Shown here in pieces: positions 21,056-62,600 of a DNA stretch of 64,000 bases. The DNA is taken from positions 1,768,800-1,832,799 of the forward strand of contig CAJNDT010003446.1 of the NCBI GenBank assembly GCA_905221615.1, in the 5' to 3' direction. The stretch is from Symbiodinium sp. CCMP2592. Taxonomy: Eukaryota > Sar > Dinophyceae > Suessiales > Symbiodiniaceae. How positions within the stretch are numbered: position 1 is the stretch's first letter; each line of letters begins with the position of its first letter. The position numbers were made by a program, and so were the translations under genes. The notes under the pieces were generated by a model. The model made no database searches. It saw only the letters and a list, made by a program, of their open reading frames with translations, and was not told the origin of the DNA.

Positions 21056-23374
21056 ATGAGGGGGATGCCTTCCGGCATGTCCTTCAAAACCATTTTCATG
21101 CTTTGCCCCTGGATGCTGAGCTTAGCAGGGCCGGTCTTGCCACATGAGTTCAGCGCAGATCCAACTAGGGAAAGCCGCCAGACACAGCTGGAGCACGCCT
21201 TGTCGGGCATCTTTGCGGCACTTCCCAAGACAGCAGAGGGCACTGTGCGATCGACGACAGAAGCTAGGCAGCATGAAGCAAGCGTCTTGAACTGCCACGG
21301 ACATGAGAGCACGTCTTTTCTGCACGTCATGTCAGGCACAATATGCACTGCATCGGCTTTTTGCTCAACTCTACGGATGGCAACTCTATGGGCATAGCCT
21401 CAGCGGATCCATACCGGTCAACACCGCAGACTCAGCGATGCTTCTTACATTCGGGGCGAAAATGTCCAGCAATGTGACACAGTGGCTGCATGCTCGCCTT
21501 TCCGACGGTGGGCTAAGCATTACCGACCTGGCAACACTGGCAGCGATCATTGAGGAGATGGTCCACGAGGAGGCAGACATGCGTCTAGCTGCAGCTTTCC
21601 GTGCGCTGCAGATGTCGAAACAGACACCCCTGACCCGAAACGAGTCGACCTCGGTTCTCGAAGCCTACATGGCCAGTTTCGTGATGGGCGTGGAGATGGG
21701 CGACCTGGGAAGCGAAAGCGACGCGTCTGAATGGCGGTTGTTTGGCATCTTGTATCTGTAGAAACAGAAGGCACTTATCTGTGCAATGCATGTTGGGACG
21801 GGTCGTCTTGAGAGCTAAGCTTTGCACTAGCATGTGTGGTTCTGGCTGAGGTATGTTGGAGCTGGTGCAGGAGGTGCCAGAGCAGTACCCCACCTGGCCT
21901 GCAACGCAAGAGTTTCTACAGGGCATCCAAGCAAAGATATTTCAGAATTCCTCGTCGCTGTCGTTTACAGACCTGTCGCAGGTGGTTGCTGCAGTTGACG
22001 AGAAATATGGTCGTTGGCAAAGCCATGAGTGCGGCGCATTGAAGGCAGAACTCTTGCAAAATGAGGAGCATCCCGGTACTGGCAGAGTTCGCTTGAGCGA
22101 CTTTTACAGCATGGCATTGAAGGGAGGGCAATGGCAATTCAGCGAAAGCAGTTCATACCTTCGCCAAATCGGTGCCCTTGATGAAACAGACCCGCAAATT
22201 CTGCGGGTTGTGGTTCCGAACTACATCCTCGGGCTCTCCAACTGCATAGCTGCTTCCAGCTATTACATGGTTTGTTGCATCAACGAGTGTGACGCGCACC
22301 TGACGCGGCTGGAGGAGGCCCTGCAGTCTCATCAGGCAACTGTGGAGGCTGGGCTTCGTTTCATCATCACTTTTCTTGTTTTCCAGGCCTTGAGGCATGC
22401 AACCTTCGCAGGCAATCCTGCTGGCTCTGAACCACACGGTCGCTCCCAGTTTGCAGCGGCGCCTGTCAGACATTGCCGCGCACCACAGCGGCCTGGTGCC
22501 ACTCCACGGCCGGCTCTTCGCCCAGTGGCTTCATCACCTCTACCCCCACGAGTGTCCTTATCCGCACATGTCCGGGACTACGAGCCCGATCCGGCCAGAG
22601 GTCTTCGAAGAAGAGAGCGGCCAGGCGGCTGAAGCTTCCGAAGAAGAGATGATTCAGCATGTGGAAGGAGCACCTTGGAGGGCAGCCCCAACTCACGAGG
22701 ACGGGGCTTCTGGCAATCCAAGGGTGTCTGTTTCGTCGAGTTCCTATATCCCATGAAGAGAGTGTCCACTCCACGTTCGGATCAATCTCCGAGAGGGGTC
22801 CAGTGGTTGTCAAGATTGTTATGCCAGTGCAACCTCGCTAGAGACATTCGGGTCCGTTGTGGTTCGGTGTTTGCAGAAGAAAATTGTGCATACTTGCGGC
22901 ATGGTGCTGCGGGATGGTTCTGGAAGCATAAGAGCTTTTGGTGGGCAGGTTAACGCGAAAGTCTGCGTGCCCGTAGTCAACGCATTCCATTCAATAAGAA
23001 GTCGTTAGTCGTTCGTGATCTGTTTGTGGGCGTCGGCTGGTGCCGCATTCGGAAGACGAGACGCCTTTACCCTCTTACGAGCTCGAGACTTCGTGGCGTA
23101 GGCTGCGCAGACTGCACCTGAGGAGGGGATGTGCTCCCACATGTGGTCCATGGAGGAGGAGCTCATTGATCCAGCGGCTCAAGGATTGACGCGGCTTCTA
23201 AAGGAACCGCAGAGCCAGGCTGTTGGGGCGCAGCGTTTGGCTGCAGTTCTAGCCGCCCTTTGCATCTTCAGTGCTTTCGGCTCCACCTTCGCTGCCAAGG
23301 AAGGCTCAGGAAGAAGATGGTACGAGAGCTCAATCAGCGAGCAGCCGGAGAGATCCGCGGTGTACAGCGTATGA
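21056..23374 (+). CDS. secreted/membrane protein of unknown family, five exons, paralog of the 57.8-kb gene
   Basis: Exons 21056-21262, 21336-21708, 21851-22347, 22412-22699 and 23123-23374 join in phase to a 538-residue protein. Alignment with the intronless paralog at 57776 fixes every junction. It has an N-terminal signal peptide, conserved blocks YALHRLFAQLYGWQLYG, RVRLSDFYSMALKGGQW, YYMVCCINECDAHL and GLVPLHGRLFAQWLHHLY with a following ECPYPHMSGTT, a C-terminal hydrophobic helix (AAVLAALCIFSAFGSTFAA) and a final VYSV shared with the paralog. The protein is probably secreted or anchored by its C-terminal helix. I do not recognise the family; the conserved CC and CPYPH motifs suggest a structured extracytosolic domain. 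The four introns (73, 142, 64 and 423 nt) start GC, GA, GC and GA and all end AG followed by G. No frame is broken, so this is an intact gene and not a pseudogene. Confidence 0.82.
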
Positions 23375-31129: not shown

Positions 31130-32200
31130 TAGCCCTTGGCAGTCCACCGCCGATGTTGGCGTTGCGAAGCAGCTGGAGCTTGCTGCGAGGCCTGGAAAAG
31201 CATGCCACAGGGCCATAGAGTCGCTTCTGAGGTGTCGATGCGTTCAGTTTCTTGCTTCGCGTCACTACTTCCACTCGAGATGCCAAGAGGTGCAGCTGGT
31301 GTGAACAAGTGGGAGTTTCCGAAAGTTAGGGGTACTTTTTTGGGGGTCCTTATAATCAGGATCCTACTATTCAGGGGACTAGATTAGGGTCCCCTATTTT
31401 CGGAAACTCCCAAGTATCTACGGCGCTCAGTGCGTGCCTTGATGTTCCTGATGCTAGGCCGCCGACTCCGAACAAGGCCCGCGCAGCTGCAGCATCTCTG
31501 CATGTCCTTCCCTACGGGACCATGTACCCATATAGGGAGTACTTTAAGGCCGATGTATATACTATTTAGGACCCTTAGGGCTTGGCAGGGTTGAAACAGG
31601 ACAGTTCAGAAGAAGGAAGCCAGACACGCAAAGCACCTTGAAGGTTGTGCAGCCGCTAGCTCCACCTGCTGCCACAAAGGAGGTCACGGTCGACAGGCCC
31701 GTCGCAACTCGCAGTGCATGAGTTGAAGAGTTAGAACATGCTACTTGTAGCATATCACTTAGCACGCCCCGCATCCTGAGACGTGCTATCACGCCGCAGG
31801 GGACCCGGGCCAAGCTCCTATGCGGAGGCTTGGGAGTGTCAGTGTCCTCAAATCGATGCTTTTCCCCAAGCTTTGCCCAGTAAGGCATTGATTGTCCACA
31901 GGCCGTGCCAGAGAGCAGCCCAAACACGGCATCCCCAGCATCGACGCTCTCAGTGGCACCTGCTGGAGTTCGGCATCGAGGCAGGTGACTCAGTATTCCA
32001 AGCTACAGGTAGTATAGCATAGTACAACTAAGTAGAAAAGGACCATCAGGGAATGGTATTACTGCATATTCCGACCCTATGTTGGGCTTTCGTGTCAAGT
32101 CAATGTTGGGACTCTTCGCTTGGTCCTCTTTGGCAGGCTATTCCGATGGGGACGGCAGCTTGGCGCCATCGTGAAGTGTTTTCAGAAGCTCCAGGTCCAT
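31130..32200 (+). CDS. unassigned candidate exons after the kinase domain
   Basis: Several frames read like low-complexity coding sequence. About 31415-31545 gives STALSACLDVPDARPPTPNK. About 31610-31735 gives STLKVVQPLAPPAATKEVTV. About 31904-31980 gives AVPESSPNTASPASTLSVAP after a CCACAG acceptor. About 32140-32199 gives LFRWGRQLGAIVKCFQKLQ. They could be the C-terminal tail of the kinase or a separate gene. Phases were not linked and no known domain is visible. Confidence 0.25.
31311..31411 (+). mobile_element. family A inverted-repeat (introner-like) element, copy 1
   Basis: Starts GGGAGTTTCCGAAAGTTAGG and ends CCTATTTTCGGAAACTCCC, with the family's core GGGGTCCTTATAATCAGGAT. The direct repeat AAGT flanks both sides. 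Because of the duplication, GT precedes and AAG follows the element, so it could be spliced as an intron, though excision at AAGT would not restore the original frame exactly. Confidence 0.85.
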
Positions 32201-32234
32201 GCGGTCAGAAGCAGGTGCCGGCAACCAAAACGAT

Positions 32235-32315
32235 AGCAAGAGTAGTAGTAGTAGTAGTAGTAGCAGTAGCAGTAGTAGTAGCAGTAGCAGTAGTAGTAGG
32301 AGTAGGAGTAGGAGT

Positions 32316-32352
<37 letters not shown>

Positions 32353-32365
32353 AGGAGTAGTAGGA
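32235..32365. repeat. (AGT)n / (AGGAGC)n tract
   Basis: AGTAGTAGT grading through AGCAGT into GGAGTA and GAGCAG repeats. The Val/Ala/Gly and Leu frames are artefacts. Confidence 0.95.
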
Positions 32366-32569
32366 GTAGTAGGAGTGGTATATGATCATCATGAATCATA
32401 ATAGTAAGTAATATAACCGTAACAAAAACCATGATCTGTGCAGGCTGAAGTCTGTAAGGTCACATTCCTTAAGAACGTGCGAGAGAGGGCTTCGTTTCGA
32501 GGGATCTGCCGGCCTGCACCGAGGCAGCAGCCACTCCGTGTCTTCTGCCTCCACAGTTCAGGCACTTCA

Positions 32570-33075
32570 GGGTTTAGGGTAGGTTGCAGTTAGCATCTAC
32601 CTGTGCGAGCGGACGAGAAGATTAGGCGATATAGCAGGCTGAATATGTTCCAAGAGCATTCCTTATAGGGCGCCTGACTTCAACTCTACTGTGATGTGCC
32701 CAAATGCCCAAACCTTCCGTTTTTGTCAGAAAACTACACCCTAAACTTCTGAACTCGAAGCCCTGTGCTCACTTTGGCTCTCAAACAGGCCCCTCCTACC
32801 TAGAAATTCTACACAGGCTAATTTGGCTGACGGAGAAGGGCCTGCCAAAAGAAGCCTAAACCTAAAAGCGTGAAAAGCCTCCCCTGCAGATCCCGCGGCC
32901 GAAGCCCTCAGTCATGCCGTGGCTCCTGGGCTCATCTGGGGTTTCGGGCGGAGGAATAGGGTTTAGGGTTTTAGAGTTTAGGGTTAAGTGTTTTGGGTTA
33001 AGGTTTCAAGGAAGGATTCAAGGAAAATGGGGTTTAGGGTATAGGGTATGGCGGAATACGGTTTAGGGTTCGTGT
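32570..33075. repeat. degenerate telomere-like (TTTAGGG) motifs
   Basis: GGGTTTAGGG-type motifs recur: about 32570-32580, a cluster at 32950-33000 (TAGGGTTTAGGGTTTTAGAG, GTTTAGGGTTAAG), 33030-33040 and 33060-33070. None forms a perfect array. The adjacent CCTAAACTTC and CCTAAACCTA words are on the opposite strand. No gene is seen from 32200 to 33620. Confidence 0.7.
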
Positions 33076-33623
33076 AAACAGGGCAATTTGACGGATTTGC
33101 GGATATGTTCGAGCGGTTTGTGTGTGCTTGGGGCCTGTAACGCTGAAAGGCATCGAAACCTAAACCTGAATTCCTGTGTGGCGGTGTCGTAGAGTTGCAT
33201 GTATTCTAGTAGCAGATCATGCATCACACATGACCCAAAAGACCTGAGCAGTTCAAGCACCAGACATCGCTTGCCTGAACTCCAGGTCGGATAACACTCC
33301 CACCTCGATCAAGGACTTCACAGTGTTCAATGCTCTGCCAGTATGCTGATTCCGCGGGCAGAGCACTCCTTCCTCCCTCTGTCTGCAGAACCTTAGCATG
33401 CAGGTAATGCGTCCGCCCCAAAAGCACCATGCAAGAAGCATGCAGGAGGGAGGAAGTCGCAGCTCCAGCAAGGCGGCCGCAGTTTAGCTGTGCACATCTT
33501 CTTCTTCCTTCAGTACCACAGTACTAAACTCTATCTGTGAATCTGTGTACGACGGCGACGCTTCCCCGAAACTGAGGACCTGCCCAGTACAGTAGGCCTC
33601 TTGTACTCTTTCGAAGAGTGATG

Positions 33624-33729
33624 GGTAGGAGTTTCCAAAAATAGGGGACCCCAATATAGCACCCTATTTAATAGGATCCTTATTATAAGAACCCCCAAAT
33701 AAGGTGCCCCTAATTTTCGGAAACTCCCG
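33624..33729 (-). mobile_element. family A element, copy 2 (inverted)
   Basis: Reads GGTAGGAGTTTCCAAAAATA ... CCTAATTTTCGGAAACTCCC; the core TAGGATCCTTATTATAAGAA is the reverse complement of copy 1. The direct repeat GATG lies at 33620-33623 and 33730-33733. The left end is variant (TAGGAG instead of GGGAG). Confidence 0.8.
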
Positions 33730-33755
33730 GATGAGCATTTTGGGGTCTCCAGGAG

Positions 33756-33856
33756 GCGTCTGAGCTTGGCACCCCTGCGGAAGCCAAGAGGGCCTTGGAC
33801 TTCAGACTTCCCGATACGAAGGAGCTGTGCCGCGACCACACGGAGCTGATAAATGA
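33756..33856 (+). CDS. candidate exon
   Basis: After CCAGGAG| the frame reads ASELGTPAEAKRALDFRLPD and TKELCRDHTELIND, a charged helical stretch with good coding character. It starts 26 nt after a family A element. Parent gene and family unknown. Confidence 0.35.
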
Positions 33857-34373
33857 CAAGAATAGTAGTATATAATACTAACAATAGTTATAGCAATAGA
33901 ATACTAATGATAATAATAGTAATACCACTAACAAGGATCTTGGGTAGCTTCTGCCACGCAGCGTGCAATTTCTGTGTGCAACAGCCTGGTGTTTCCAGGA
34001 GAGAGGTGATGCCTTCCATCTGAGTCAAGCAGACCAGCTGGGATTTGGGCCTCTCGACTTCCTGCGCCAAAAGCAACAAAGCCCCCAATCAGCAATCGGG
34101 CTTTTGTTCGCGAACGGGCACCCTTAAGGTTCGGCATCTGCAGTCGTTCCGGAAGCAAGGACCGAGCTAGGGTTCCGAATCGCGAGTATGTTCCCCTGAC
34201 AGTCTTGCTTCAGCTAGATCGTATGCCGGCTAGGGCGCATTCTTAATGCGCCGTCGACTGGACAGGTTGTATACTTACTTGACCCCAAGTAAGGTATTCG
34301 TACCCTACCTGTAAATACCCGTAAGATCCTGTAACTAATGTCACAGCTTTACAGCTGCAGACGGGAATCATGT

Positions 34374-34477
34374 GGCAGTTTCCGAAAATGGGGCACCCTA
34401 ACATAGCACCTTAAATAGTAGGATCCTTATTATAAGGACCCCAAAATGAGTCCCCCCCCCTTTTTTCGGAGACTGCA
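34374..34477 (-). mobile_element. family A element, copy 3 (inverted)
   Basis: GGCAGTTTCCGAAAATGGGG ... TTTTTTCGGAGACTGCA with the core TAGGATCCTTATTATAAGGA. The direct repeat ATGT lies at 34370-34373 and 34478-34481. The compensating change GGCAGT/ACTGC at the two ends keeps them paired. Confidence 0.85.
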
Positions 34478-34561
34478 ATGTCGACCTCCAGGACTCAACG
34501 TCAAGCGCACGGCTTGGCGGCAAGGATGCTTCCCCGTCTTCACCGTGGCTTTCAGCAAGTT

Positions 34562-34664
34562 GGGAGTTTCGGAAAATTATAGGTACCTTATCTTGGGGTC
34601 CTTATAATAATAAGGATCCTACTATCTAGGGTACTATTAGAGTCCCCTATTTTCGGAAACTCCC
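34562..34664 (+). mobile_element. family A element, copy 4
   Basis: GGGAGTTTCGGAAAATTATA ... CCTATTTTCGGAAACTCCC with the core GTCCTTATAATAATAAGGAT. The direct repeat AGTT lies at 34558-34561 and 34665-34668. Only 84 bp separate it from copy 3, and the two are in opposite orientation. Confidence 0.88.
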
Positions 34665-36433: not shown

Positions 36434-36893
36434 GTATCGACATTTCGGTCGAGGTCTCAGGCTGTCCTGGCTTGAGTGCCAGGTGCCATCCGCACGCATC
36501 CATGGAACCGTTTCGTCGTTTTGCTCCGGAAGCTGGTCAAACGTGCAACCAGTCTTCCGTGTTTGCGGGCTGCAGCATGAAAGTGAAAGCAGGTTCTCAT
36601 TGCTGATTCCGTAACAAGACCCCGAATCTCTCGTGAGGGGATAGCAGATAGCGACCTGTACTGTATGCTGGAGTGCACGGCCTTCCGATTCTGTGAGGTC
36701 TTCGCACGACAGGCCAAGCAGCAGCAGCAGCCGCTGGCGCAGCCAATGGCAACTCAGTATGTCTATTAGCCATATTGTGTAGACGGCCATGTCTCCACAT
36801 GCGTTTGGGTATTGCGACGTGGTTCTTGATCCTGTGAAGTGCTGGTAGCATGACGATGCAAGCAGATGCGGAAATACTTGAACATTCTTATTA

Positions 36894-37175
36894 TTACTAC
36901 TATTATTCTCATTATTATTATTACTATTAACAAAAAAGTACGACTATTATTCTCATTATTATTATTACTATTAACAAAAAAGTACTACGATTATTCTCAT
37001 TATTATTATTACTATTAACAAAAAAGTACTACTATTATTCTCAAATTATTATTACTATTAACAAAAAAGTACTACTATTATTCTCATTATTATTATTACT
37101 ATTAACAAAAAAGTACTACTATTATTCTCATTACTTTTATTACTATTATCAGTCTTATTACTAATTACTATTATT
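36894..37175. repeat. 44-bp tandem repeat, about five copies
   Basis: The unit is CTATTATTCTCATTATTATT, then ATTACTATTAAC and AAAAAAGTA, repeated about five times with minor changes and a degenerate final copy. It is AT-rich with no coding function, and there are no spacers, so it is not CRISPR-like. Confidence 0.92.
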
Positions 37176-37208
37176 CTCATAGTACAAGAGCTCGGCTCTT
37201 GTACTGAG

Positions 37209-39315: not shown

Positions 39316-42300
39316 ATGACGCGATGGGCCTGTGCACCGCTGTTTCTGCTGCTTTTCCCGTGCTGCGGAAGGGGAGCCAAAATCGATCAGGGCCCTGAGC
39401 TTGCATCGGAGCAGGTGGGAGTTTGCGGAAATTGGGGGGGGGGGGGGGGGGGGGTACCTTATTTTGGGGGGGGTCCTTATAACAAGGGTCCCAGTATTTA
39501 AGAGTATTATTATATGAGGGATTTAGGGTCCCCTAGTTTCGGAAACTACCAGGTCCTGGAGGAAGCGGTGTTGGAGGCAAAGTTCTTCGAGCACAGAGAG
39601 CGGTTTGGGATCGATGATCGCCGTACTCTCGAAGTCTTCTTCCAGCTCTTCGACCTTTGGATCATGCTGTACCGCCTGAACAAGGCGGATGAAGCCTTGA
39701 AAGAGGTGCTGCCGGCTTGCTGGTGGCGTCAAGATGACCTGACAGTCCAAGCCATCCAGGTGCGAGGGGAAGGCTTAATAACTCCTTACAACTCCTTAGT
39801 CCCAGCATATCGGCACATCTCTGCAGGTAGCATCCCCAACTTGATGCATATGCTCTTTTGCTCTTTTTGGTGCCACCTTCCAATGCTTTCTCAGAATCAA
39901 TCCGTGCGTCCTCTCGGCATCACCTTGCGAGTTTCAGGCCCTGGCCTTCACGCGCTGGAAGCAGGGCCTCCTCAAGGCGCTGCTGGTGATGGGTTCAGGG
40001 TTTATAGGGTTTATAGGGTTTAGGGTTTAGGGGGGCGAGCGATGCAAAAAAGGGGGGCGAGCACTAATCAAGCCTGTGGAAAAGGGGCTTTCGTTTTGAG
40101 ACACAAACATAAGCTGCAAGGAGGAGCTACGGACAAGTTGCGTTGCTAAGGTTCATGGCTAGTGCATGGTAGCGACAACAGCGGCGACTATAGTGACAAC
40201 AGCAGCTAAGAGAGTTGAGACTGCACTTGCGGCAGTACTGCTACCGTCTGGCACTACGTAACACATCATCCCCATAAGGCAATGACATTGTGCGACTCAA
40301 GGGCAGGCCAACCAGAGACGAATCGCCACACTTTCAATAGAGGCTATGCTTCCGAGTTAATACAAGCACCCGCTGCGAGGAAGCCTTGACATGGTTCAAT
40401 CTCATGGAAGGCCTGCTGGGGAAGAGTGCGGCCACTTGGTGTCGAATGAACTTGACCTGTGCAGTGAATGTGGTACTCGAAGCATTGGTAATTTAATACT
40501 ATTGCCTCAGGGTCCCACAAAGTGTCAGACCTCGCGAGCCGGGCACAGCTTCCAAGCAATGCGAGAGGGAAAAAAAACAAAGTGTTTCAGTGTAGAATCT
40601 ACCCCCGCGCCATACTCCAATCATTAAGACCGCTACATGAGGTGTGAGCACCCAAAGCAAGCCTCGAACGATGACGCAACTCGAGGCACTCTGCGAGAAC
40701 ATCGGGCACACGTACAATTCGCAAGCCGGTGGCATTCAAGGGCAACGGAGAGCAGCCGAGCCTGTGAACCCCCGATGTCGGTAGTATCAACCTGGGATAA
40801 CTTGGGGGACTCACGACCCGCTGGGGTTACCAGCTGAGGATGGGGATGCATGCAGAAGCTGAGACCTACTTTCTGCAGTCCTTGCTGTTCCTGGATTCCA
40901 ACGTATCCACTCAGAAGAACAAAGGCCACAGCATTGCCGTACAAGCAGTTAAGCTCGTTTAACGTGTGGCCCAGAATCCACATGCCTGTGTTCATTCCTG
41001 CTCTGCTTGATCAAACTCTTGTCTTTTTTCAGATGGTTCCCCCAGACAAAATCCGGTGCATTTGAGAGGCGGTGTTCTGCTTGGGCTGGCGGGAGTGCGT
41101 GAAAAGCAACACAAGCTGGCCGAAGCCCGCGAATCGGCGCAGGAGGCGATGGAAAAGACTGGGACTACAAAGTTAAGGTACTTGGAATCATAGGGACCCT
41201 TAGGGGGGTAGGGGGGCACGGGGTAGGGGGCCTCAATACCTACAATAAGGACTTAACAAGGCCTACCTAAGGGTCCCCATGATGTAATCCGCCAGGCTCC
41301 TACTCGTACGAGTTGTGCTGGTCCTGTGCACTGATCAGGCTTACGACCTCTACAAGCAGCGGGATGTGGAGAATGGCTGGGAGTCATCCCTCACTGCCAA
41401 AGCCGGAATGACCCTAAGCAGCTTGCCTCAGCTCAGCCCACTTCAGAACAGGAGAGGCGAAAGGCGTCCCTTGCGTACTCAAACATGTCAGGAAGGGGGC
41501 TCTTAAGGACCCCAAAAATGGGGATATCCCTACCTTCTTGGGCTTCATTATACAGGGGATTTAGATGGGATATGCCTATCCTAAGTTTTGCTTCTGTGCT
41601 TTTTTGGGGGCCCCTAGGCTCTAAGACTCCGAGCATTGAGCCGAGCTGCGAGCTGCCAGGCAAGATGGCTCTAAAGCTCGGCGACATGGAGGAGGCGGAG
41701 GCGAAATGCCAGGACTGGAAGTCACCCTATCTACTGTGTTTTTTGTCAAGGGAGTGAATTGAAGTAATTTGAGTTCTCAGAATCGGAAACCATATTTTTT
41801 ACTCTGGATCCCTATTATGGTAACTGAAACTAGGTTTCTTAACAAGAGCCCAGTCTACTTTGAGCCTCTCTGCTAGTGCTACCTGAGATGTACTGCGCAC
41901 ATCAGACTGGCCTTCTGCACCTGCACCAGTGAGGCGCTAGGAAAGGTAGACAAAACACCGGTGCCCTGAGGAGGCTATCCGCCTTTTCGAGTCGACCTCT
42001 GGTGAGGATTCGCCGTTGCTTGCCACGGCCTTCAAGCGCATGGGTGAGATACGGATGGCACAGGACGGGGCAGACGATGTCACTGTTCGATGTCCCACGT
42101 GCAACTAAATTCTCCGAGCATGTAAGCCAATAAGCGTGGAGTTGGCGGCTGGCTAGCAGCCTACAAGTTTGCTGTGGCTGTTCTTTACTGACAAATAGCG
42201 ACCATCTTCAAGCATCCAGCATCAAAGCTTGTGTAAAACTGCTCGATGTGAGGGACCAGTTCCTGACAACTCACACTTTCAACCCATACATCTGGGAAGA

Positions 42301-50086: not shown

Positions 50087-50188
50087 CAGAGTGTCCGAAA
50101 ATGGGAGACCCTAATATAGTACCCAAAATGGTAGGATCCTTATCATGAGGACCCCGAAATAAGGTGCCCCCAATTTTCGGAAACTCCC
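50087..50188 (-). mobile_element. family A element, copy 6 (inverted)
   Basis: CAGAGTGTCCGAAAATGGGA ... CCAATTTTCGGAAACTCCC with the core TAGGATCCTTATCATGAGGA. The direct repeat ACAT lies at 50083-50086 and 50189-50192. It sits 31 nt before a candidate exon, so probably in an intron. Confidence 0.87.
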
Positions 50189-50219
50189 ACATCTTCTGGG
50201 GCATCAAGACTCCACGCAG

Positions 50220-53200
50220 GCAGCTGACGAGCCGAAAGAAGGCACGTTGCTGCCAGTGGACGAGTTGAAGAAGGCAGATGGACATGAGTTTCTAAGCACG
50301 AAAATGTGGCTGAGACGCCGTTGCAAGCGCCCGAACTGCAATTTAGTCTTCGACACCGGGAGGTCTCGAAGTACCTACAACACACGCTGACGAAATTTGG
50401 AGCGTCGGCAACAGCTGTGGCGGATGCAGAGGACGCATTTGTCCCCGAACTCGCTTATATGTTTCATGCCATGCAGCATGGGGTTTGGATGTTTCGCTGG
50501 CGGCGCCCTCGTTTTCCGCGTGTTCAACCGTCCTTTCTTGCCGATGTGGTTCTAACACACAAGACAGAGTGCCTGCTGAGCTGCACTGCTTTGTTTGTAC
50601 AGGGAGGGGCCTTAGATTCACAGCTCAATCAGCAGCTGTGCACCAAAATGCATGCAAGCCGGTGGCGCACAGGCATTCGTGACAATGTGTTTTGGCATTG
50701 TGTCTGCAGGAGGCGAAGAAAGGACTCACCCCGATTGCACAGGAGGCAAGTGTTGAGCCAGGACGGCTAGGATCTTTAGTGTTTTACCGGTCTGCAGAGT
50801 TGCCGCTGCTGGAGTCGAACTCACAGCATTCTTAGAATCGAACATTACTTCAGTACTTGGCTCGGTGAAATGGGAGCTTCCGAAAACTAGGGGTACCTTA
50901 TTTTGGGGTCCTTATAATAAGGATCCTAGTAGTTAGGTACTATAGATTAGGGTCCCCTGTTTTCGGAGACTCCCAAAGGTGTTCGGCAGTTTCCCCTGAA
51001 CTCGCAAGGTGGTCAAAGCCTACACCGCCGCTGCTGGAACCCTGATGTCTCTGTCTGGTGGAGCAGGCCCGTGACCTGTTTCTGTTGATGATGTAAATCC
51101 TGCATTATCTTAAGGACCCTAAAACATGGGAATTATGCTATATTCCTTATTATGGATAATGCAGGATTTATATCATCAACCGTTCCACCTTATTCGGCCA
51201 GCTGGAAGCGTCTCCGGAGAAACTAATCAGAGACAACCAAGGAGACAATTGTGGGTACATGCCCCGTAAATAACCCGGACCCCCGCAAATGCGCAAGTCA
51301 CATGTTTGAAAATATTTGCGGAACACACAGTCGGAGACGAGTTCAGAACGCGTTTACACTTTTCTGGCGACGCTCGGAGGTGCATGCTTGGCAGCAGAGC
51401 TCAAGGAGTTTTCGGTTGAGACTTCTTTCCATGTTGCATGGGCTTCAGCGCATGTATTGCGCATGAGCTCATCTTGATGGAAAGGTAGTTCCCTAAACCC
51501 TAAACCGTTTCATGTACAGTAGCACGGTGCCTCGGGATTTCGCATTCAGATGGTGCGAGGATGCCGGGAGCGGCCTGGCAGATTCTTTGGAGGCGCCCAC
51601 CTGCCTTTGCAACGGTCGTGCATCAAATATCCACTGTGGATCGTGCTCCACCTCTTGTGACTATAATTGCTCAACCCTAAACTAACAACTCCCAAGCGAA
51701 TGGAAACGAACCCTGAAAAGAAACAATAAACCCTGGATCCCAACCCGTTTCCTCCACTACGGTTGATGATACAAATCCTGCATTACCCAAAATAAGGAAT
51801 ATGCCATAATTCCCATAGTTTAGGGCCCTTAAGGTACTGCAGGATTTATATCATCAACAGTATGACTTCTTTTGCAGGCACTGGGCAACGCTGTGTTGAC
51901 CCCTGGCCTGGCATCTTGTGCGGCAAAGGCGCCCGGTGCACGCAACATCTGCATCCCCAGATGAAGCCTGGGCCTGTGCACTTAATGAACGTGACGTTAT
52001 AGTTATATAGTTGTAAAGTTATATATATATATATATATATATGTAGTTAATATGGTTATATGGTTATATAGTTATATACTTATATACTTATATACTTATA
52101 TAGTTATAGTTTTCCTGTAGCTGACAGAAGGTACTAATATCATTTTCGTCATATTCGCACCTTCGGTGTACCATCGGTAGGCGCTGCAAGCGGCTGGCAA
52201 TTTCGAGCGAGTCTCCACGCAGAACCGAGCGGCCATCAGAAGGACCGCTTGTGGACTGTCTCTCATTCAAGTTGCTGAACCCAGGGCACTTCAGATGCCA
52301 GGCGATTGCTGAAGAATTTGGCGATGCTCCGTGATGCCAACCGTGAGATGCAGCAGGACAAGTTCGGGATATCAAACAGCTGCAGGTTGCAAACATCCGA
52401 GATCACGGAAGCTCCAAATCCAAAAACATCAGAAGTGTGTACGCGGGTGTTCACTTCAGCCATTGTTAATAAGGTGTTGCCGACCTGCTTCTTACCCGAC
52501 CTTTCCTGCAGGAGATTGAAAACGCAGACAAGAAGGGTCTCGGCACCGTGGAAGTTCTCAGCGGGGACGAGGTCCACGAATCGCGACCTTTCGCTTGCTG
52601 ATGTCTCCCCTGAACCTCGAAGCCCGGAATGTTGCACTGCAGGAGCTTCTGGAAGATGAAGATGATTTGTGCAGCGCCTTTCAAGAAACCATGCTGCCTT
52701 CCGAGAGGTGCCTAAAACCTGAGATTGAGGGATGTTGAGGGTTGATTGCTGCCCTCAGCGATCAATAGCGCAGAGGCCATGATGACCAGTTACAGGCTGA
52801 GCGCGAAGTTGCTTTTCTTCATGTGGGGTGTTGGCGAAGAAGTTCACTTCGAAGTACCTTGTCAGTGACACGGACGGCTCGAGGGACAGTGACAATGCGG
52901 AAATGTGTCACATGGGGCAGCTTGTGTTGAACGCCTTTGGACGGACATTGTTGTGTGGCCTGTTGGGCACAAGCGGCCAAGTTCGGATAGCTGGTGCTAG
53001 GTACGAAATCTTTGCTTGTGAGAGCGTCAAAATCCAGATCCGGACTGCTGTGGCCAGATTTAAGCTCGCCGGCAATAAACCGGTGAAGGGGTGGCCGGGG
53101 GGGGGGGGGCGGGATGGCCAGAAATTGGTGATCTTCCTTGCTGCAAACTTCCCTACACGCTCTCCATCTTGCGAATTAGATCGGGGAAGTGGCCGGCGAC

Positions 53201-54493
53201 CTGCGCCAGGCGAATCTTGGAAGCTGCGCTCAAGATGTCGACGCAGCTGGAGGAGGTCCTCAAAGAGGCCTTTGGGCCAGCTTTGACAAGGGCAGCTACC
53301 CGTGTTGCAGTGAATCTGCGACGGCATGGATGCAACGTGCATCGCTGAGCATTTTCGAAAGAGAATGGCGAGCCTTGGCAAGGCATCCACCTCTTGCGTT
53401 GCTGGCAGCGACTCGCAGATAAGCCTCGACTTGGCCACGCTGGAGGTGTGAGAGTCGCATTTGTGCTACGTCATCGAACCAATGCACATGCACTCCGTCA
53501 CGTGCAGTCACGCGGTTTCCTGAAAGTATCGGACGTCAGTCTTCGATTGCCTTCTGAATTTATTGCAGGTCATTGCCGAGCAAGCGACACAGGTGCCAGG
53601 TGTGCCCGAGCATGATTGAAAGCGATCTCTCAGGCTCATTGTCACAGCAAGCAGCATGAGCACATTGTCGGTCCACTCGGATATTGCAACCTGATACTAG
53701 TACAACATGGTTCAAGGGCTGAAGGGGTGTTACTGCCTTGCAACTGCAGTAAGGACAGATTCTTGATTCGACCTGTCTCAAGATCGCGATTGTGTTGCTG
53801 CATGAATGTTCCAGGTGCCATCGACACACTTGCAGTTCCGGCCCCATTTTGCTTTTGCCGATGTGAGTCGCGAGTCTTTGATGAAAGCAGGGCTTTGCTT
53901 AGACGGAACGGACCTTGAATCTTCTTTTTGAGGGAGGTTTGACGATGTCCTTTGCTGTGGTAACGGACGATGCTGCTCACCCGTCCCATAGTAAAATCAG
54001 CTTTTGTCGATATGTCGGCCCACTCGACGCTGAAAGGCTGACTGCGTGGGTGGCGTCGATGAAGAGGCAGGGCCGCCAGCCACCCGTTGGCTGGTTACGT
54101 CAGTTTGCTTGTTCCGCAGGCGTGCAACAGCAGCCTCGAGACGCTGCGACAGGCGCCTGTGTAGAAGCCCGCCATGTGCCGTGCCTGATGCGTTCAGCCC
54201 AGCTTTTCTCCATTCTGAGAGGCTTTGCCTGTTTTCATCCACTACCCGAGTGGCGCGGCCGACACACTCACACCTCTTCTGGAGGAAACGCAGGTCGAGA
54301 TGCCACAGCTTCGGAGGGGGGCGGAAGGGGAGATAAAGAGTGAATCGGGTCCGGGGTCACATTCAAGACGCGTCCGTAGCTGAGGTTTCCCGTGGCGCTG
54401 CCAAAGCATCCCATGTCGTTTGATTTGATTTTGCCACAGGCAGCGCTGGCAGCCGTTGAGGCTGAAGAGGTCGCAAAAGAGGAGGATGAGTGA
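50220..54493 (+). CDS. candidate multi-exon gene with coiled-coil segments
   Basis: Exon-like segments in order: 50220 to about 50320 (EGTLLPVDELKKADGHEFLS after CCACGCAG|); about 50711-50771 (EAKKGLTPIAQEASVEPGRL); 52306 to about 52383 (LKNLAMLRDANREMQQDKFG); 52513 to about 52590 (EIENADKKGLGTVEVLSGDE); 52601-52735 (LNLEARNVALQELLEDEDDL then CSAFQETMLPSE); about 53212-53345 (MSTQLEEVLKEAFGPALTRA); and 54440-54493 (AALAAVEAEEVAKEEDE then stop). They are acidic, helical and coiled-coil-like, and the last gives a plausible C terminus. I infer one gene, but junction phases were not established and two genes are possible. No known domain seen; possible structural or scaffold protein. Confidence 0.4.
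50872..50974 (+). mobile_element. family A element, copy 7
   Basis: GGGAGCTTCCGAAAACTAGG ... CCTGTTTTCGGAGACTCCC with the core GGGGTCCTTATAATAAGGAT. Flanks are AAAT and AAAG, a 3-of-4 match that may be a decayed target duplication. Confidence 0.85.
51084..51182 (+). mobile_element. family C inverted-repeat element, copy 1
   Basis: TGTTGATGATGTAAATCCTG ... CAGGATTTATATCATCAACC. Ends are inverted complements (about 25 bp, few mismatches); the interior is AAGGACCCTAAAACATGGGA and TATTCCTTATTATGG. Flanks GTTT/GTTC are a possible decayed duplication. Confidence 0.82.
51490..51512 (-). repeat. telomere-like CCCTAAACCCTAAACC
   Basis: Two CCCTAAA units followed by CCGTTTC. The same word occurs at 49665-49680 and 63412-63430. 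Confidence 0.75.
51761..51857 (-). mobile_element. family C element, copy 2 (inverted)
   Basis: GGTTGATGATACAAATCCTG ... CAGGATTTATATCATCAAC; the interior (ATAAGGAATATGCCATAATT, TTTAGGGCCCTTAAGG) is the reverse complement of copy 1. Flanks ACTAC/AGTAT are only partly alike. Confidence 0.82.
52018..52112. repeat. (TA)n and TATAGTTATA tract
   Basis: Alternating TA followed by TTATATAGTTATATACTTAT repeats. Confidence 0.93.
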
Positions 54494-54908
54494 CCCAGAG
54501 CTTCCACTGCAGGAGTCCTAGCTCGCGCCTTCAAGCCATGCTTGACAGCGCGTTTGAATCGTGAGATGGTCAGTGGAAACCTTGGGATACTTGCTGTCCA
54601 AACTCCGTGGCACCGTGCATGGTCGGTTATGAAGGCCGACAGCTCAACCCTACCAGGGGGTGGGGAGGGTGGCCCTCTCCAACCCTTTCAAAACGCATCC
54701 GGCGGACGGCAAGCAACCTTTCACAAAAAAAGACAAAATGAACCCCAAGACCCTACAACCTCCAAGCATTTTGAAAACCCCTAAACTCTCGAACCGCAGA
54801 ACCCTCTTCTGGCCCCTGCCCACTCGCCATTTGCCGTTCGAGGCCGGGCACTCCTTGGCGGTGGAGTTGGAGCTCAAAACTGTGCGAGTACTTCTCATGC
54901 CCGTCATA

Positions 54909-55021
54909 GGGTTGATGATACAAATCCTGCGTTACCTCAAGGACCTTAAACTATGGAGAATTATGGTATATATTAATTATTAACTCTTTACTATGGGTAT
55001 TGCAGGATTAGTATCATCAAC
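54909..55021 (+). mobile_element. family C element, copy 3
   Basis: GGTTGATGATACAAATCCTG ... CAGGATTAGTATCATCAACC with the interior AAGGACCTTAAACTATGGAG as in copy 1, extended by TATATTAATTATTAACTC. Flanks ATAG/GTAG suggest a decayed duplication. Confidence 0.82.
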
Positions 55022-55029
55022 CGTAGGCC

Positions 55030-56340
55030 CTACGGCGTAGGGTGGCTTGGGTATGGAGTGGTATGGCTTATGGGGCTTAGGCCCTTTCGGGGACTGAAGG
55101 CAAGGAGTTTAGGGCCACCGAAGTACAGTTTCGCATGCATACCGAATCCTTCGTTTGTTTTGCGAGGGAGAGGGATCCAAAGGAGGGTAGTGTGTTTCGA
55201 TTTAAGACGTCACGACTTGACCTGCCGACACTTAATTAGAACCAAGTTGACTGGTCCAGGTAGCAGACCACCATGCGTAGGGTTTTCCGAAACTAGAGGA
55301 CCCGAATATAGCGCCCTAAATAGTAGGATCCTTATTGTAAGGACCCCCAAAATAAGGAATCCCTAGTTTTCGGAGACTCGAATGTACCCTAACATGATAG
55401 GCTTCAATTCAAGGGGTCAGAATGCAGATGTTCAGGGGTCAATAAAAAGATCGGGGGTCCAAAAAAGACCTAGCAGGTCAAGAAAAAGACATGCCCCAAC
55501 GGCTGCTGCATTTCAAGTTTGACGTGATCTGTTGGTTCCCAGGCAGCAAGTCTTCAGTGATGTTTGCATCCGAAGGCTGTTTGCCCAAGCCAAGTGGCAG
55601 CTTCGTGACATGCCTGCATTTTTTGCCTGCTACTTCCAGGCGAGGTTAATCACTGCTATAGCTCGTGAGCACCACTCGGACAGATCGTACTGATAACTCA
55701 GTCCTATGCACCACAGTAACAGTATACAGCACAAACCTACAAGAAACATTTCGGAAGCAAGTGAACCTTTGCGCAAGGAGCCGTTTCTGCAGCTCCAATC
55801 ACAAGCCTCCTCTCCTCCGCCTCAGACAGACAGTGGCTAGTTACAACACGTTACATCTTGGCCATATGCGTTTATGCTTAGCCCTTGCAGTTACTTCCAG
55901 TCTCACGCCGGCTATTGCGATTATGACTTTGTAGAGGCAGTATCTTATGCGAGGCACCGCTTCGACATGTTGTAGTGCTATGAGGGGGGGTTTCGCAGCT
56001 GGGATGGCGCACTCTCACCGGGACGACCGGTAACCGGGCGCCTGGCATCGCAGTCCGAGGCAGACGGTGCGTTTTGATGGTTGGAGTTGGATGATTACCC
56101 TTCACATGATAACAATAGCAGTGACGGATTGCCTTTCACATGAGCACTAAGGCACTAAGTGCAGGATACAGCGAGAGAGAGACAGGAAGCTGAAAGTGCG
56201 TGCATCCATGTCGAACAGGGATTCGGCAGGAACAATGTCTTCGAATGGTGAGAATGACATCCTCCTGCTGCTCGAGGGAGACAGGCGTGCGCGACGCATG
56301 TCAACAGTTCGTATTCGTTCATGCATGTTGCGACTGTCCC
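55030..56340. other. no gene recognised apart from a family A element
   Basis: Spacer between the 50-54-kb gene and the WD40 gene. 55430-55500 holds repeated 'AGGGGTC/GGGGTCC AAAAA' words (CAGGGGTCAATAAAAAGATC, GGGGGTCCAAAAAAGACC). No supported exon. Confidence 0.35.
55281..55379 (-). mobile_element. family A element, copy 8 (inverted)
   Basis: GGTTTTCCGAAACTAGAGGA ... CCCTAGTTTTCGGAGACTC with the core TAGGATCCTTATTGTAAGGA. The ends are more diverged than in other copies and no clear target duplication remains. Confidence 0.8.
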
Positions 56341-56349
56341 TTCCGAGGG

Positions 56350-56610
56350 AGGCATGTCGTGCAGCAACGTTCATTGTGGATATGTCGATTGCTTGGTCAG
56401 GCGTTCCCTGTTTCCGGGCAGCAATCCTCGCATGCTCACCGTTTCCACGGACCAGACGATGCGGCAATGGGATGTGAAGACAGGCCGGAGCCTCTGAATC
56501 GCATTGAACATCATTGAACCATATTGAACCCCAAACAACCCCTACGTTTGGTATTGGAATCACAAGCATACCACATGAGACATGCATGCATGCATACATA
56601 TATAGTTATA

Positions 56611-56646
<36 letters not shown>

Positions 56647-59600
56647 CTTATACACTCATGTAAACACATGTATGTATATGACATACACATATATTGGTAC
56701 CCACAACTGCTAGAGGTGACGAGCAACGCTGCTGGTGGCGTCATCAGGCATCGGGAGAAACCCGGCATATGTCAACGCTGCATTAACGCCCAGAATGTAC
56801 AAGAGAGGGGGAACTGCTTGGGCAGTATGTTGGACAGGTCTGAGAGACTTCTGAAGTGAGGTCTTTCAATGCGTGGTTTAGCATCGGATGTTGAGACGGG
56901 CCCGTCAACGGGTCGACATGTGCTGATGGAAACAGTCGATCGAAGAGAAGATGCTGAGCTTGCGCACGTGCCAAGTAGGTTTGATGTCACTTCTGTGAGG
57001 CGGCGATCCTTTGCCTCAACGTGGACTGGGACACGGACATGGCTGCTACACTGGCGAGTTTGCCGGTAATTTCGAGAGAGTAAGGCATATAGTCATATAG
57101 TGCATGAGCAGATTGATGCACGTGTTAAGTAGTTATGATTGGCTCTGATGCCAGTTTTAGGATGCTACCCCAGCTTGGATGGCAGAAAAGGCCAGCACTC
57201 TTAGTCACATGCAATGCAAGGTAACCGGCTCTGGCGATCACACCCTGGCCCTGAGCTCACTTCGAGAGTACTTTCTGTTGAGGCTTCAGGGTTCAACGTT
57301 CGTGGCTTCAAGCGAGGCCCTGTGGGACGTGAACGAAGAGGTGCCAGAAGAGAAGGCCCTTCAGAGCTTCTTTCGAGGCCTGTCCGTCATTATCAAGTCC
57401 AGCAGCAGCTTCAATGCTGTGAGTCGTGATCGTCATCGCCATCATCACTGCCATATCACCATCGCTTCATCGTGCAAAGTTGAGTTCTACTCCTTCGCAG
57501 CATATCCGGGAATGCAGGCCACAAAGACTGGGTGACGTCAGTCGACGTGGACTGGGATGGCAGGCGTGCCGTTCTTCTCGATACACCTGTGTGGCCACAT
57601 ACATGCAAGCCGCGCTTTCATGCTTCCCGAAGTCCGGACTGTGAGAATGGTTCATGACAGTCGGCCTGTGCGAGGGATATTCATGCACTGCTGTGCCTGG
57701 CTCAAGCTGCTTCCGTGGTGCCACCTCACACCACGCACAAAGAAAGTCTGCCTTTAGACACTTCCATTCGTACCTATGGCTAAGTCGTCCGCCTTCTCTG
57801 CACATTGTGCAGTTCTCCTGCTGGCCCTTGGAGGGTGCAGCGCCCAATTTCTCACAGACGTACCGGTCCCACACCCCAAGCAGCCCATCATCACCGAACT
57901 CAAGGATGTCATGACCGGCACTGAGTCAACGGAGGCTCGCATCGCCAGTTTGCAGGATGCACTCTCAAGCATCTTCCTCGCTCTTCCAAAGAACTCACGT
58001 GGTGCCGTGCGGCCACCAGCTGCGCGCTATGCCCTTCATCGCCTGTTCGTTCAGCGCCACGGCTGGCAGTTCCACGGCTTGGAGCCACGTGGTGAAACGT
58101 GGGACAGCTCCTCGCCTGCGACTGCATTGGGAAACCGTGTCTCGGAGGATGTCTACGCCTTGTTTGAGAGTCGACTCACGGACCATGGCTTGGACCTCCA
58201 TGACTTGGCCGTGCTGGCGGCAATGCTGGAGAACATGGTCCACGCAGAAGCGGATATCCGCCTGACAGCTGCCATGAGCGCTCAGGAGCAGCCCCTTCAC
58301 CGCGTCTTGAACATGACGGAGGCTACTGAAGTCCTGGAAACCTACATGGCCAGCTTTGTCCTTGGAGCGGACATGCAACACTTGCAGCCCGACAACATGT
58401 TGCAAAAGCTTGGTGAGGTTGGCGAGCAGTACCCAACCTGGCCGGCAACACAATCCTTCTTGCAGGAGACACGCCAAGATATCTTCCCTAGCAAGAAGGA
58501 GCTGTCCTTCAGGGACATGTCCGAGGTTGCAGCGGCAGTTGGCGAGCGGTACGGCCGCTGGCAGAGTCACGAGTGCTCAGCTCTCAAAGATGAGCTGCTG
58601 CAGAGCGAGGAGCACCCGAACACTGGCCGAGTTCGCCTGAGCGACTTCTACGGAATGGCGCTTCATGGGGGCAAGTGGCAGTTCAGTGAGAGCGTCTCCT
58701 ACCTCCGGCAGCTTGGTGCTTTGGACGAGACGGATCCTGACACAATCCGACTCATTATCCCGAACTACATCCTCGGCCCCTCGAACTGCATAGCATCCAG
58801 TGGCTACTATGCTGTTTGCTGCATTGACGAGTGTGATGCCTACCTGAACTCTTTGGAGCAGAAGCTACAAAGCCACGAAGCCTCGGCAGAGGCCATCATC
58901 AAAGCTGCGAACCGCAGCGTGGCCTCAACGTTGAAGCAGCGGCTCCGCCAAATCGAAGGGCACCACGGGGGCTTGGTGCCACTCCATGGACGCCTCTTTG
59001 CGCAGTGGCTTCACCACCTCTACCCACGCGAGTGCCCATATCCGCACATGTCTGGGACTACCAGCCCTCTCAGGCCGGAAATCTTCGAGCAAGAGGTGGG
59101 CGAGCCGGTGGGTGCATCAGAAGAAGAGATGATGCAGCATGTGCAGACTGCCTCCTGGAAGAAGCCTCCCACACACGAGGAAGGCATGTGCTCCAGCATG
59201 TGGACTATGGAGGAAGAGTTGGTCGATGCAGTAGCGCATGAAAAGGCACTGACGGCCAAGCGCCGGAAGAGTGCCAGCCGGGCAGTTCTGCACGGGGTGG
59301 CTTTGTCTGTTGCTGTCGTGTCCTTGGTGATCACCATGGCGAAGCTTTTTGCAGGAGCAGGTGCAGAAAGTGGATCCAAGGTACCTGGCACCGAGAAGGT
59401 AAAGGTGTACAGTGTTTAAGTTCGCCTCTTGACTGGACACGACGGGGGTGCTGTGCCTGAGGCACAACAGCACAAGATCAAAAAGACAGGAGAGCACCAT
59501 GCTGTGTGACCAGTGTTAGTCTCGTGACCTGAAGAGCGAGCTGGTGCCAATCTCGTTCCCCGATTGCAGGCGGATACTTTCCGGGGCAGCTGACGGAGAG

Positions 59601-62600
59601 GTGCGCATTTGGGATTTCGATTCGGAGGAGTCCGTGGGCTCCTCAGCCACTTGCTGCACGAGGCACGAGGTGAGACGGTTCGCTTGAGTCAGTTTATAAT
59701 GATATAACAATATAGTAATGTAATAAGACAATAATATGATCATATAACAGTATAATGGTATAATAATATAGTAGTAATATATTGAGGTGGCCACCCTCTC
59801 CGACCACACAGGAGCTGTGCCCGACCCTTTGCTTCTCGTAAATCTCCTTGCGACGTGTGCCAACGGCCGGCTTTCAGGTGCTCCGTCGCTGCTGAGTGGG
59901 ACCTTCAGCGCGCGATCTCTGTCGGACAGGATCAGGTCGTGAGGCCCTTCCTCGAGGGAGATTCAGATCGTGATTTTACCAGATCTTCGCATCATTTGTT
60001 GAGTACGTTTGCTTCAGACAGAAGGAATTGGGATCTGGAGACCGGCCGCTGCATCTCGCGACTGGAGGGTCACACCGGGGCCGCACTGCTCTCAGAAGCC
60101 GCGACGGGCATGCGGCGATACGCATTGATACTGGCCATTGTCTTTCCTGCAAGTAACAACGAGGTCTGGTGCTGCAGCCTGGATCCTGATGGGAACAAGG
60201 CCTTCCTTCCATGCTTTGGAAACAGCTTGCCTGGCGAAGCTGTGTCTTGCAACTGCTTGAAAAAAACGACAGCATCAGTAGCCGCCAGTAGAAAATGACA
60301 ACTGACCGCAAATGCCAGCAAGAGACGACAAGCACGGAGACAGCGGCATTCACAGAAACAGCAGCGCCAACAACAAGAACAGCTAAGTCATACTGTAAAG
60401 ACAAAGACTGCTACTGATGGTGATTGTTATTGCAACTTACTTGGATCATGATTCCCGTGGCCATGATGATGCCAGTGAAGGTGAGGGCGTCGGTCGCAAA
60501 GATCGCATGTAAGCTGGTGGTGGTGACATTCTATCTATCATTTTCTCTTGATACTATATCCACTCTGGGGAGGACAGGATGGATGATGTGAGGCAAGTTT
60601 GCAACATCTATATATTCATGTCACGAAGAATGAGTGGTACAGTGCCGATGCGACGAAGCTGTCAGCATCACTCGACCGAATCCGAATCAAACAGCTTTAT
60701 GACAAAGCTTCAAGTTGTTTGCAGGCCGTGACTGGTGCTTTCGACCGCCATCTGATGGTCTGGGATTTGAGAATGCAGTCTTGTGTCAGGCCGGGGCACA
60801 TGGGCACAACTCATAGCAGAGCTCGGGTGCTGTGCGTAACAGCAAGTTCTACCAACCTACATTGGCCAAGATGCTATACCTTGCTATACTAAGTGAGTTT
60901 CCGAAAATAGGGGATCCTAATATAGTTCCCTTATTTAAGTTACCCAAAATCAGGTACCCCTAATTCTCGGAAACTCCCATATTACTATCGTTATACCACA
61001 CCATACTTTTACTTTATCCCCGGCCCAGGGCCATGCTCCAACACGGACGTCAAGTTGTTGACCTAAGCGTGGATTGGCCGACGCTGGGAGCTCAGCCTTC
61101 AAAAAAATCCAGGAGCGAAGTAGAAGACAGCAAAGCCGAAAAGAATATACTATCATTCTCAGAAGGTGACCCCCCAAACTAGTATAGGTCCCCAAAATCG
61201 CACAGGTCCCAAAAATAATATAGGTCCCCAAAATAGTATAGGTAATGATAAGAAATCTTGGGCTTCTCTTTCGTGAGAGCTGAGGTTTCAGGGCATGAGC
61301 TGCTCCGCAGACCGCAGCATCATCCTCTGGGACCTCGAGGCTCCTGGCAAGGGAGGCGAAATTTAAGGAAGATGCCTTAAGTCATAATCGGATTCCTACT
61401 ATTATTTAAGGTATATTCCTTAAATTATACTAGGATTCCTAATATGATTTAAGGTATATTCCTTAGTTGCGGGTTTGTGGCATTTTTGCGGCACCTGCCT
61501 GTGGTCTTCAGGTGGCCGAGCCTTTGCAAAGGTTCGACAAGCATCCTGGCAGCGTGTGGTGCTTGCCCCGCTGCCATGCTTGAAGCCTTTCTGGGAGTTT
61601 CCGAGAATTAGGGGTACCTAATTTTGGGTCCTTATAATAAGGATCCTACGATTTAGGGTACTATACTAGGGTCCCCTACTTTCGGAAACTCTCTTGTAAT
61701 CGAGTCACATTCACGCGCGCCAGGGATGTGGACTGGGCTGGGCGGAGAATGGTCACAGGCCCTGCGAAGCTTGCAGCGTCGTTTGCAGTGGTTTGGAAGC
61801 CTTGACGTTGTGCTTCATTGAACCGTTGCTGTTTTCCAGCTCGGCTCTGCAGCCTATGCATAGGACTACAAGGCCAATATCGCAAACGATTACTTGTAGT
61901 AGGCATGATGGTGGCACACCTGATGTCACGTCTGATCAACGCCAGCGACCTCGAAACGCCAGTGGCTAAACCCACTGGTACTTTGCTGAAAGACCCGCGA
62001 GTGCCCAACAAGGAAGATGATAAGAAGCCGGCGGAGAAGGATGTCAGACCGATGCTACCACTGGTCAGCAAGAGAGCAGAGCAAGAAGCACTGGTTGCGC
62101 AAGCACAGTGAACGAGTACAGACGGAGCGCACAGAAATGAGCATCAAGAGGAATGCTCACGGTACCGTTCCCATCCCCTGACTGAAATCACTTGCAGGGC
62201 AAGGGGAGTGCAGAGGCAGGCACCACAGGGACATTGCCTCAGCGGGAAGCAGTGATTGTATAAATCCTTACTTTAATTAGACGTTTTGTGACCGCGTGAT
62301 CTCATGAGTCCTATTCAGGATTTGCTAGTTGTTGAAACTCCTGGAAGCTTTGGTCCTCTGCTGCCTAGGGGATCACGCAAGGTCCATTCTTGCATGTCCG
62401 ATGTTGAGAAGGCTGCCTCCTGTTCCGAAATACAGGTTTGAAGTCAGCACAAGCTGCGCTCACCAAAGTAGTGATCTTCTCCACTGCACCTGTGTATTCG
62501 TTGATTGGTGAGCCCTGATCGAAAAGCAGTGTCTTGGACTCAGAACTGTCACAGTTTCCATGTGCATTCACATGCTCGCTGAATCGAAGGGCTATGTCTG

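Follow-up and report, generated by a model that had tools for sequence, protein, structure and literature searches.

A MITE that duplicates a 4-bp ANNT target has very probably hit the protosplice site AGGT in a coding exon of a TPR-like gene of Symbiodinium sp. CCMP2592, where the spliceosome would remove the element together with one copy of AGGT. The case is the long-proposed AGGT transposon route to introns, with the splicing predicted from the reading frames; the intron is better regarded as a side effect of a bulk MITE than as the work of a dedicated introner. The gene lies within the 64,000 nucleotides analysed here, referred to as the window, and positions are counted from the first letter of that stretch.

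The anatomy of the insertion and its duplication are observed directly (Table 1). The element opens with GGGAGTTTGC and closes with GGAAACTACC, and the terminal inverted repeats of this copy are imperfect (GGGAGTTTGCGGAAATT compared with GGTAGTTTCCGAAACTA on the opposite strand). An earlier note on this DNA had described an element with terminal inverted repeats flanked by AGGT on both sides, and the description is correct to the base. Its proposal that the GT of the left AGGT and the AG of the right one serve as splice sites also agrees with the reading of the frames: cutting out GT...AG joins two open exons in phase 0, ELASEQ running into VLEEAVLEAK with the coding sequence unchanged and continuous as ELASEQVLEEAVLE. 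With the element retained, the frame closes at a stop inside it. The note had named an upstream exon in another frame as contrary to its reading, and this is not what is seen; the ATG at 39316 is in frame with ELASEQ, which ends at 39414, and with VLEEAVLEAK from 39553. The AG at 39551-39552 belongs to the duplicated AGGT, and other letters stand at this place in other copies of the family.

The ends of the element are not a product of chance, since their matches in the window far exceed the expectation from shuffled sequence: allowing three mismatches at most, the 18-mer of the right end matches 8 times (its own position counted) where 0.04 matches are expected, and the 19-mer of the left end 3 times where 0.01 are. 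A run of 21 G follows the left repeat of the intron copy (39434-39454). RNA folding of the element was considered as a force driving splicing and was dropped, the stability of the fold of 39413-39554 being within that of its shuffles (z -1.02, with 31 of 200 shuffles equally good).

Table 1. Positions of the features of the insertion, the gene model, the MITE family in the window and the distant paralogue of L079
Feature	Position	Strand	Remarks
Left target-site duplication AGGT	39413..39416	+	direct reading; GT is the proposed 5' splice site
Right target-site duplication AGGT	39551..39554	+	direct reading; AG is the proposed 3' splice site
MITE copy, 134 bp	39417..39550	+	family consensus 102 bp; surplus mostly poly-G
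Left terminal inverted repeat	39417..39433	+	
Right terminal inverted repeat	39534..39550	-	
Proposed GT-AG intron, 138 nt, phase 0	39415..39552	+	frame reading; in-frame stop if retained
Exon 1, hydrophobic, signal-peptide-like N-terminus, ends ELASEQ	39316..39414	+	translation; signal peptide by eye
Exon 2, VLEEAVLEAK...VQAIQ	39553..39759	+	translation
Exon 3, ALAFTRWKQGLLK	39938..39976	+	gene model; GC-AG intron next
Exon 4, EALTWFNLMEGLLGKSA	40380..40430	+	gene model; GC-AG intron next
Exon 5 start, ALCENIGHTYN, TPR-like	40686..40718	+	
MITE copy	31311..31411	+	duplication AAGT
MITE copy	33627..33728	-	flanks ATCC/ACCC
MITE copy	34374..34477	-	duplication ACAT
MITE copy	34562..34664	+	duplication AGTT
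MITE copy	50087..50188	-	duplication ATGT
MITE copy	50872..50974	+	flanks AAAT/AAAG
MITE copy	55277..55381	-	ends diverged
MITE copy, 86 bp, internal deletion	60893..60978	-	duplication not clear
MITE copy	61593..61693	+	flanks TTCT/TTGT
C3124 piece L097	171680-171790		distant L079 paralogue
C3124 piece L098	173290-173390		distant L079 paralogue

Downstream of exon 5, more TPR-like pieces can be read on the same strand. A stitched gene model of 196 amino acids finds TPR families in Pfam at E 3e-6 or weaker, none of which reaches its curated cut-off, and in the PDB it finds designed TPR chains, the best of them at E 2.5e-16; an initial model of 122 amino acids, whose last residues overran the end later chosen for exon 3, matched no Pfam family. 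The TPR matches start at residue 65 at the earliest and leave the junction, at residue 33, uncrossed; they support the existence of the predicted gene and not its junction. A search of the organism's own genome for a paralogue of the gene returned the gene itself alone, and hence no empty site for this copy. Two introns of the gene model, 39977-40379 and 40431-40685, have GC-AG ends; such introns are common in Symbiodiniaceae according to the available part of PMC11453091. Set against figures in that paper and in PMC11114475, these introns, a GC content near 51% and the size of the assembly point to a dinoflagellate, probably one of the Symbiodiniaceae. Other non-coding stretches of the gene (window 41176-41300 and 41490-41620) are by eye rich in words resembling GGGGACCC and GGGTCCCC, and look like further MITE families. 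Searches of the window returned no Rfam family at the gathering score and no match, at up to three mismatches, to the dinoflagellate spliced-leader word.

The family to which the element belongs has 10 copies in the window, in both orientations, and a consensus of 102 bp. The window is locally rich in it: the same model gives 10 hits in these 64 kb and 2 in a 200-kb sample, the latter being a non-random set of 20 pieces taken at round coordinates from four large contigs, 8 of the 20 from the window's own contig. Perfect 14-nt ends number 5 in the window, compared with an average of 2.0. The richness spans 31311-34664 and 50087-61693. The window also contains a tandem array (36870-37195; period about 44 bp) and a 295-nt dispersed repeat whose two copies, 22410-22704 and 58890-59184, are 72% alike.

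Across the 1.1-Gb genome (1.098 Gb) the perfect 14-nt end GGGAGTTTCCGAAA occurs 34,615 times, against 17 for a reversed-pattern control, and in 25,514 cases (74%; control 3) it directly follows ANNT. The 4-bp repeats differ between copies (for instance AAGT, AGTT, ATGT, ACAT and ATAT), and it is because of this variation, together with the genome-wide ANNT, that the AGGT direct repeat is taken to be a target duplication and not just a splice consensus; the idea that AGGT is a mere splice consensus was dropped on account of the different duplications carried by sister copies. Searching the window and the fetched loci with the family model gave 86 copies, of which 57 lack an exact 4-bp repeat by the rules of the script used; among the 57 are truncated and diverged copies, and poly-G-expanded ones with ends that the script left unplaced. 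Poly-G-expanded copies escaped this script and were added only by reading of the AGGT-left loci. Many of the best-matching copies (L002-L008 among them) form a length-variable subgroup with a long stretch of G following the left repeat.

Short length, terminal inverted repeats, high copy number and a target duplication of fixed 4-bp length with a preference for ANNT are all found, and the family is a MITE whose 4-bp target leans towards AT and which shows no visible preference for AGGT. Genome-wide, 281 ends follow AGGT, or 1.10% of the ANNT ends, where the letters of the first 100 ANNT ends listed, treated as independent, predict 1.14%; among those 100, ATAT is the commonest target (39) and AGGT accounts for 4. 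A preference of the family for AGGT was dropped on this comparison. The earlier note had also called the intron copy young or preserved, and its youth finds no support in divergence from the consensus: of 102 aligned positions 11 are substituted in this copy, as against 6 to 14 in the nine remaining copies of the window and 4 to 9 in 17 fetched AGGT-flanked copies. The comparison is rough, in that the window's ten copies were themselves the source of the consensus, and selection for a perfect left end biases the fetched ones towards low divergence.

A genome-wide pattern of perfect end words flanked by AGGT at left and right gives 83 copies (reversed-pattern control, 0). Aligned to the consensus both ways, they divide 41:42 relative to the strand of the AGGT, and there is therefore no orientation bias. 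A subset was retrieved for closer reading, consisting of 40 of the 281 AGGT-preceded ends, each with a perfect left end and taken first in contig order: AGGT flanks 17 of them at both ends, the right flank differs in 15, and the remaining 8, for which a right end is missing within range, look on reading truncated or rearranged. Two AGGT-flanked copies, L063 (C57:71222) and L064 (C57:81224), are separated by 10 kb and have almost identical flanks, the mark of a local segmental duplication.

Open frames across the junction were measured for 17 AGGT copies (16 fetched ones and that of the window, L064 being omitted as a near-duplicate of L063) and for 15 control copies (30 strands) with exact 4-bp repeats, from which copies with AGGT or ACCT and those with fewer than 250 bases on the right were omitted. 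There is no overall shift in frame length between the two sets (Mann-Whitney p 0.27). Joined frames of at least 300 nt occur on 8 of 17 AGGT strands, 9 of 17 opposite strands and 9 of 30 control strands; at 450 nt or more the numbers are 5 of 17, 1 of 17 and 0 of 30, respectively (Fisher p 0.004 against the controls, at a threshold set post hoc). Because only the tail of long frames differs, perhaps about a third of the AGGT copies lie in exons and the remainder do not.

Pfam searches covered 10 joined frames out of the 17 from AGGT copies, with the longer gene model representing the window, and 10 control copies out of the 15, which gave no hit at E 0.1. Among the AGGT frames, L071 matches NYN above the cut-off, L087 matches FKBP_C above the cut-off from a point after the junction (FKBP_N, at E 0.074, is below it), the window gene matches the TPR families below their cut-offs, L060 matches SH3_3 at E 0.13 and six have no match. 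The joined frames of L060 and L086, of 327 and 456 nt, have no firm homology. Judged by frames and homology, an element of this same family coincides exactly with a predicted intron in four unrelated genes, namely the TPR-like gene of the window, L071 (NYN), L079 and L087 (FKBP).

A site without the insertion can be compared in the case of L079, in which removal of GT...AG leaves 732 nt open. Its close paralogue L096, 68 kb away (C224:1262108-1262899), is 92% and 73% identical in two pieces and has a single empty AGGT, observed directly, where the sequence runs on as FDYNKVLGCFKRQG within an open frame of 1054 amino acids; set against L096, the insertion in L079 leaves the coding sequence unchanged. 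Should L096 be a retrocopy, its missing element would itself indicate splicing. L096 also has 66 nt that are absent in L079, a few codons upstream of the empty AGGT and ending in TTTCAG; these may be a GC-AG intron of its own.

A distant paralogue of L079, on C3124, is 39-52% identical and matches in two stretches, 83-126 and 128-243, separated by about 1.6 kb, with the L079 junction at 125/126. TCAG precedes the downstream piece, which opens with GTT (valine), an AG/GT-like 3' boundary, and the 1.6 kb probably represent an intron that coincides with or adjoins the place of the element in L079. Two more distant matches (23-27%) cross the position without a gap. The site may have been used twice, or the intron position may predate the element. 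L079 is therefore weaker as proof of a new intron position, while still an exact example of an AGGT insertion, and because of the C3124 intron our confidence in the preferred explanation was lowered by the smallest of steps.

In the other two sister genes the frames are supported across the junction itself. The NYN match of L071 covers residues 19-111 and the junction falls at 55. For the joined frame of L087, an FKBP, 53 of the 60 PDB alignments shown, out of 118 matched, start at 74-89 and cross the junction at 91/92; of the others shown, 2 start at 91 and 5 after the junction. L087 also matches 12 other places in the genome (24-47% identical): in 9 the match runs through the junction with no gap of intron size, and in 3 it begins beyond the junction.

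It is conceivable, though improbable, that the element is an unspliced insertion tolerated in an exon, the gene being disrupted or its ATG exon unused and the AGGT fitting by accident. The near-chance frequency of AGGT among the targets and the lack of long open frames around many AGGT copies would accord with this. However, the window copy has gathered its 11 substitutions while the exons on either side have stayed open and in phase and the TPR-like exons downstream readable, and the sister AGGT copies in the NYN and FKBP genes likewise have open frames on both sides. An older intron that the element entered or replaced, with boundaries that happen to coincide, is most unlikely. Identically repeated intron boundaries have been described in dinoflagellates, in the portion of PMC7789003 available, and the C3124 paralogue has an intron near the equivalent place; against this, element and duplication fill the predicted intron exactly, with zero residual intron sequence, and the close paralogue of L079 shows only one AGGT at its site, with no intron.

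The earlier note had read the element as an introner. Part of that reading stands, in that the element fills the predicted intron exactly and does so in other genes too, one of them with an empty-site paralogue; it needs qualifying in that the family is mainly a bulk MITE, not an intron maker, and favours an AT-rich target, with 1.1% of its ANNT ends at AGGT. A dedicated introner, adapted for intron making by splice signals of its own or by targeting of genes or AGGT, is very unlikely here. It would have a counterpart in the introners of Symbiodinium microadriaticum, which, in the text and Fig. 2B of PMC9860276 as available, share with the window MITE a perhaps related host, terminal inverted repeats, a 4-bp duplication and a 5' splice site derived from that duplication. 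Family 1 of that species carries its own 3' splice site, whereas the window MITE takes its AG from the duplication, the two being compared by description. Three observations oppose such an adaptation: GT and AG both lie within the duplicated target, AGGT is as rare among the ANNT ends as predicted while ATAT is commonest, and the AGGT-flanked copies are split evenly in orientation.

The preferred reading, a MITE that landed in an exonic AGGT, follows a model of intron gain, transposon insertion at an AGGT protosplice site, that is reviewed in PMC3443670. As in the model, in so far as the available text sets it out, an AGGT duplication surrounds a transposon in an exon and gives a donor AG/GT and an acceptor AG/G with the coding sequence unchanged; unlike it, the present case has a single family with 83 AGGT-flanked copies and, as an internal control, tens of thousands of ends at other targets. 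The same part of that 2012 review lists two matters as not understood: the reason for the splicing of AGGT transposons, and whether there is any transposon to which intron gain is preferentially due.

Introner families that take both splice sites from the target are reported for other hosts in the available text of PMC9860276, which also gives introners as enriched in genes in 161 of 175 genomes. Those of Florenciella (Fig. 2E of that paper) obtain both splice sites from the insertion site, as the window MITE does; the host is different, and the legend of the figure makes no mention of an element with terminal inverted repeats or of a 4-bp AGGT duplication. The introner elements of Amoebophrya, as partly available in PMC7789003, resemble the window MITE in having inverted repeats near both ends and direct repeats of 3-5 nt over the boundaries, but the introns there are non-canonical and that of the window is GT-AG. 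Dinoflagellate introners of many families, with 12,253 introns in Polarella glacialis, were described by Roy et al. (2023, Curr Biol); they share the broad host group with the window MITE and are cited here through the summary in the available part of PMC11453091.

For the window copy we infer the action of a transposase in trans as well as the splicing. The transposase would make a 4-bp staggered cut at the exonic AGGT and insert the MITE, and repair would duplicate the AGGT and so complete AG/GT on the left and on the right. The spliceosome would then pair the GT of the left AGGT with the AG of the right one and take out the 138-nt GT-AG intron, leaving the coding sequence unchanged. The element itself would bring neither splice dinucleotide, both coming from the duplicated target. 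Since the ends are inverted repeats and present the same boundary context, either orientation of insertion would work.

Whether an AT-targeting MITE makes introns solely through the ANNT target that it happens to hit, an exonic AGGT giving an intron either way round and other targets giving none, is a proposition on which we are evenly divided. The family permits a direct test, with the same element present in both orientations at AGGT and at other ANNT targets. If exonic AGGT copies were spliced efficiently and the other exonic copies were missing or retained, the duplicated AGGT alone would suffice to start an intron, and an introner would require no specialised element. If the proposition is true, the family would amount to an experiment of nature on the scale of the genome, one that singles out the protosplice site as enough for an intron to be born; the element would need neither splicing adaptation nor gene targeting.
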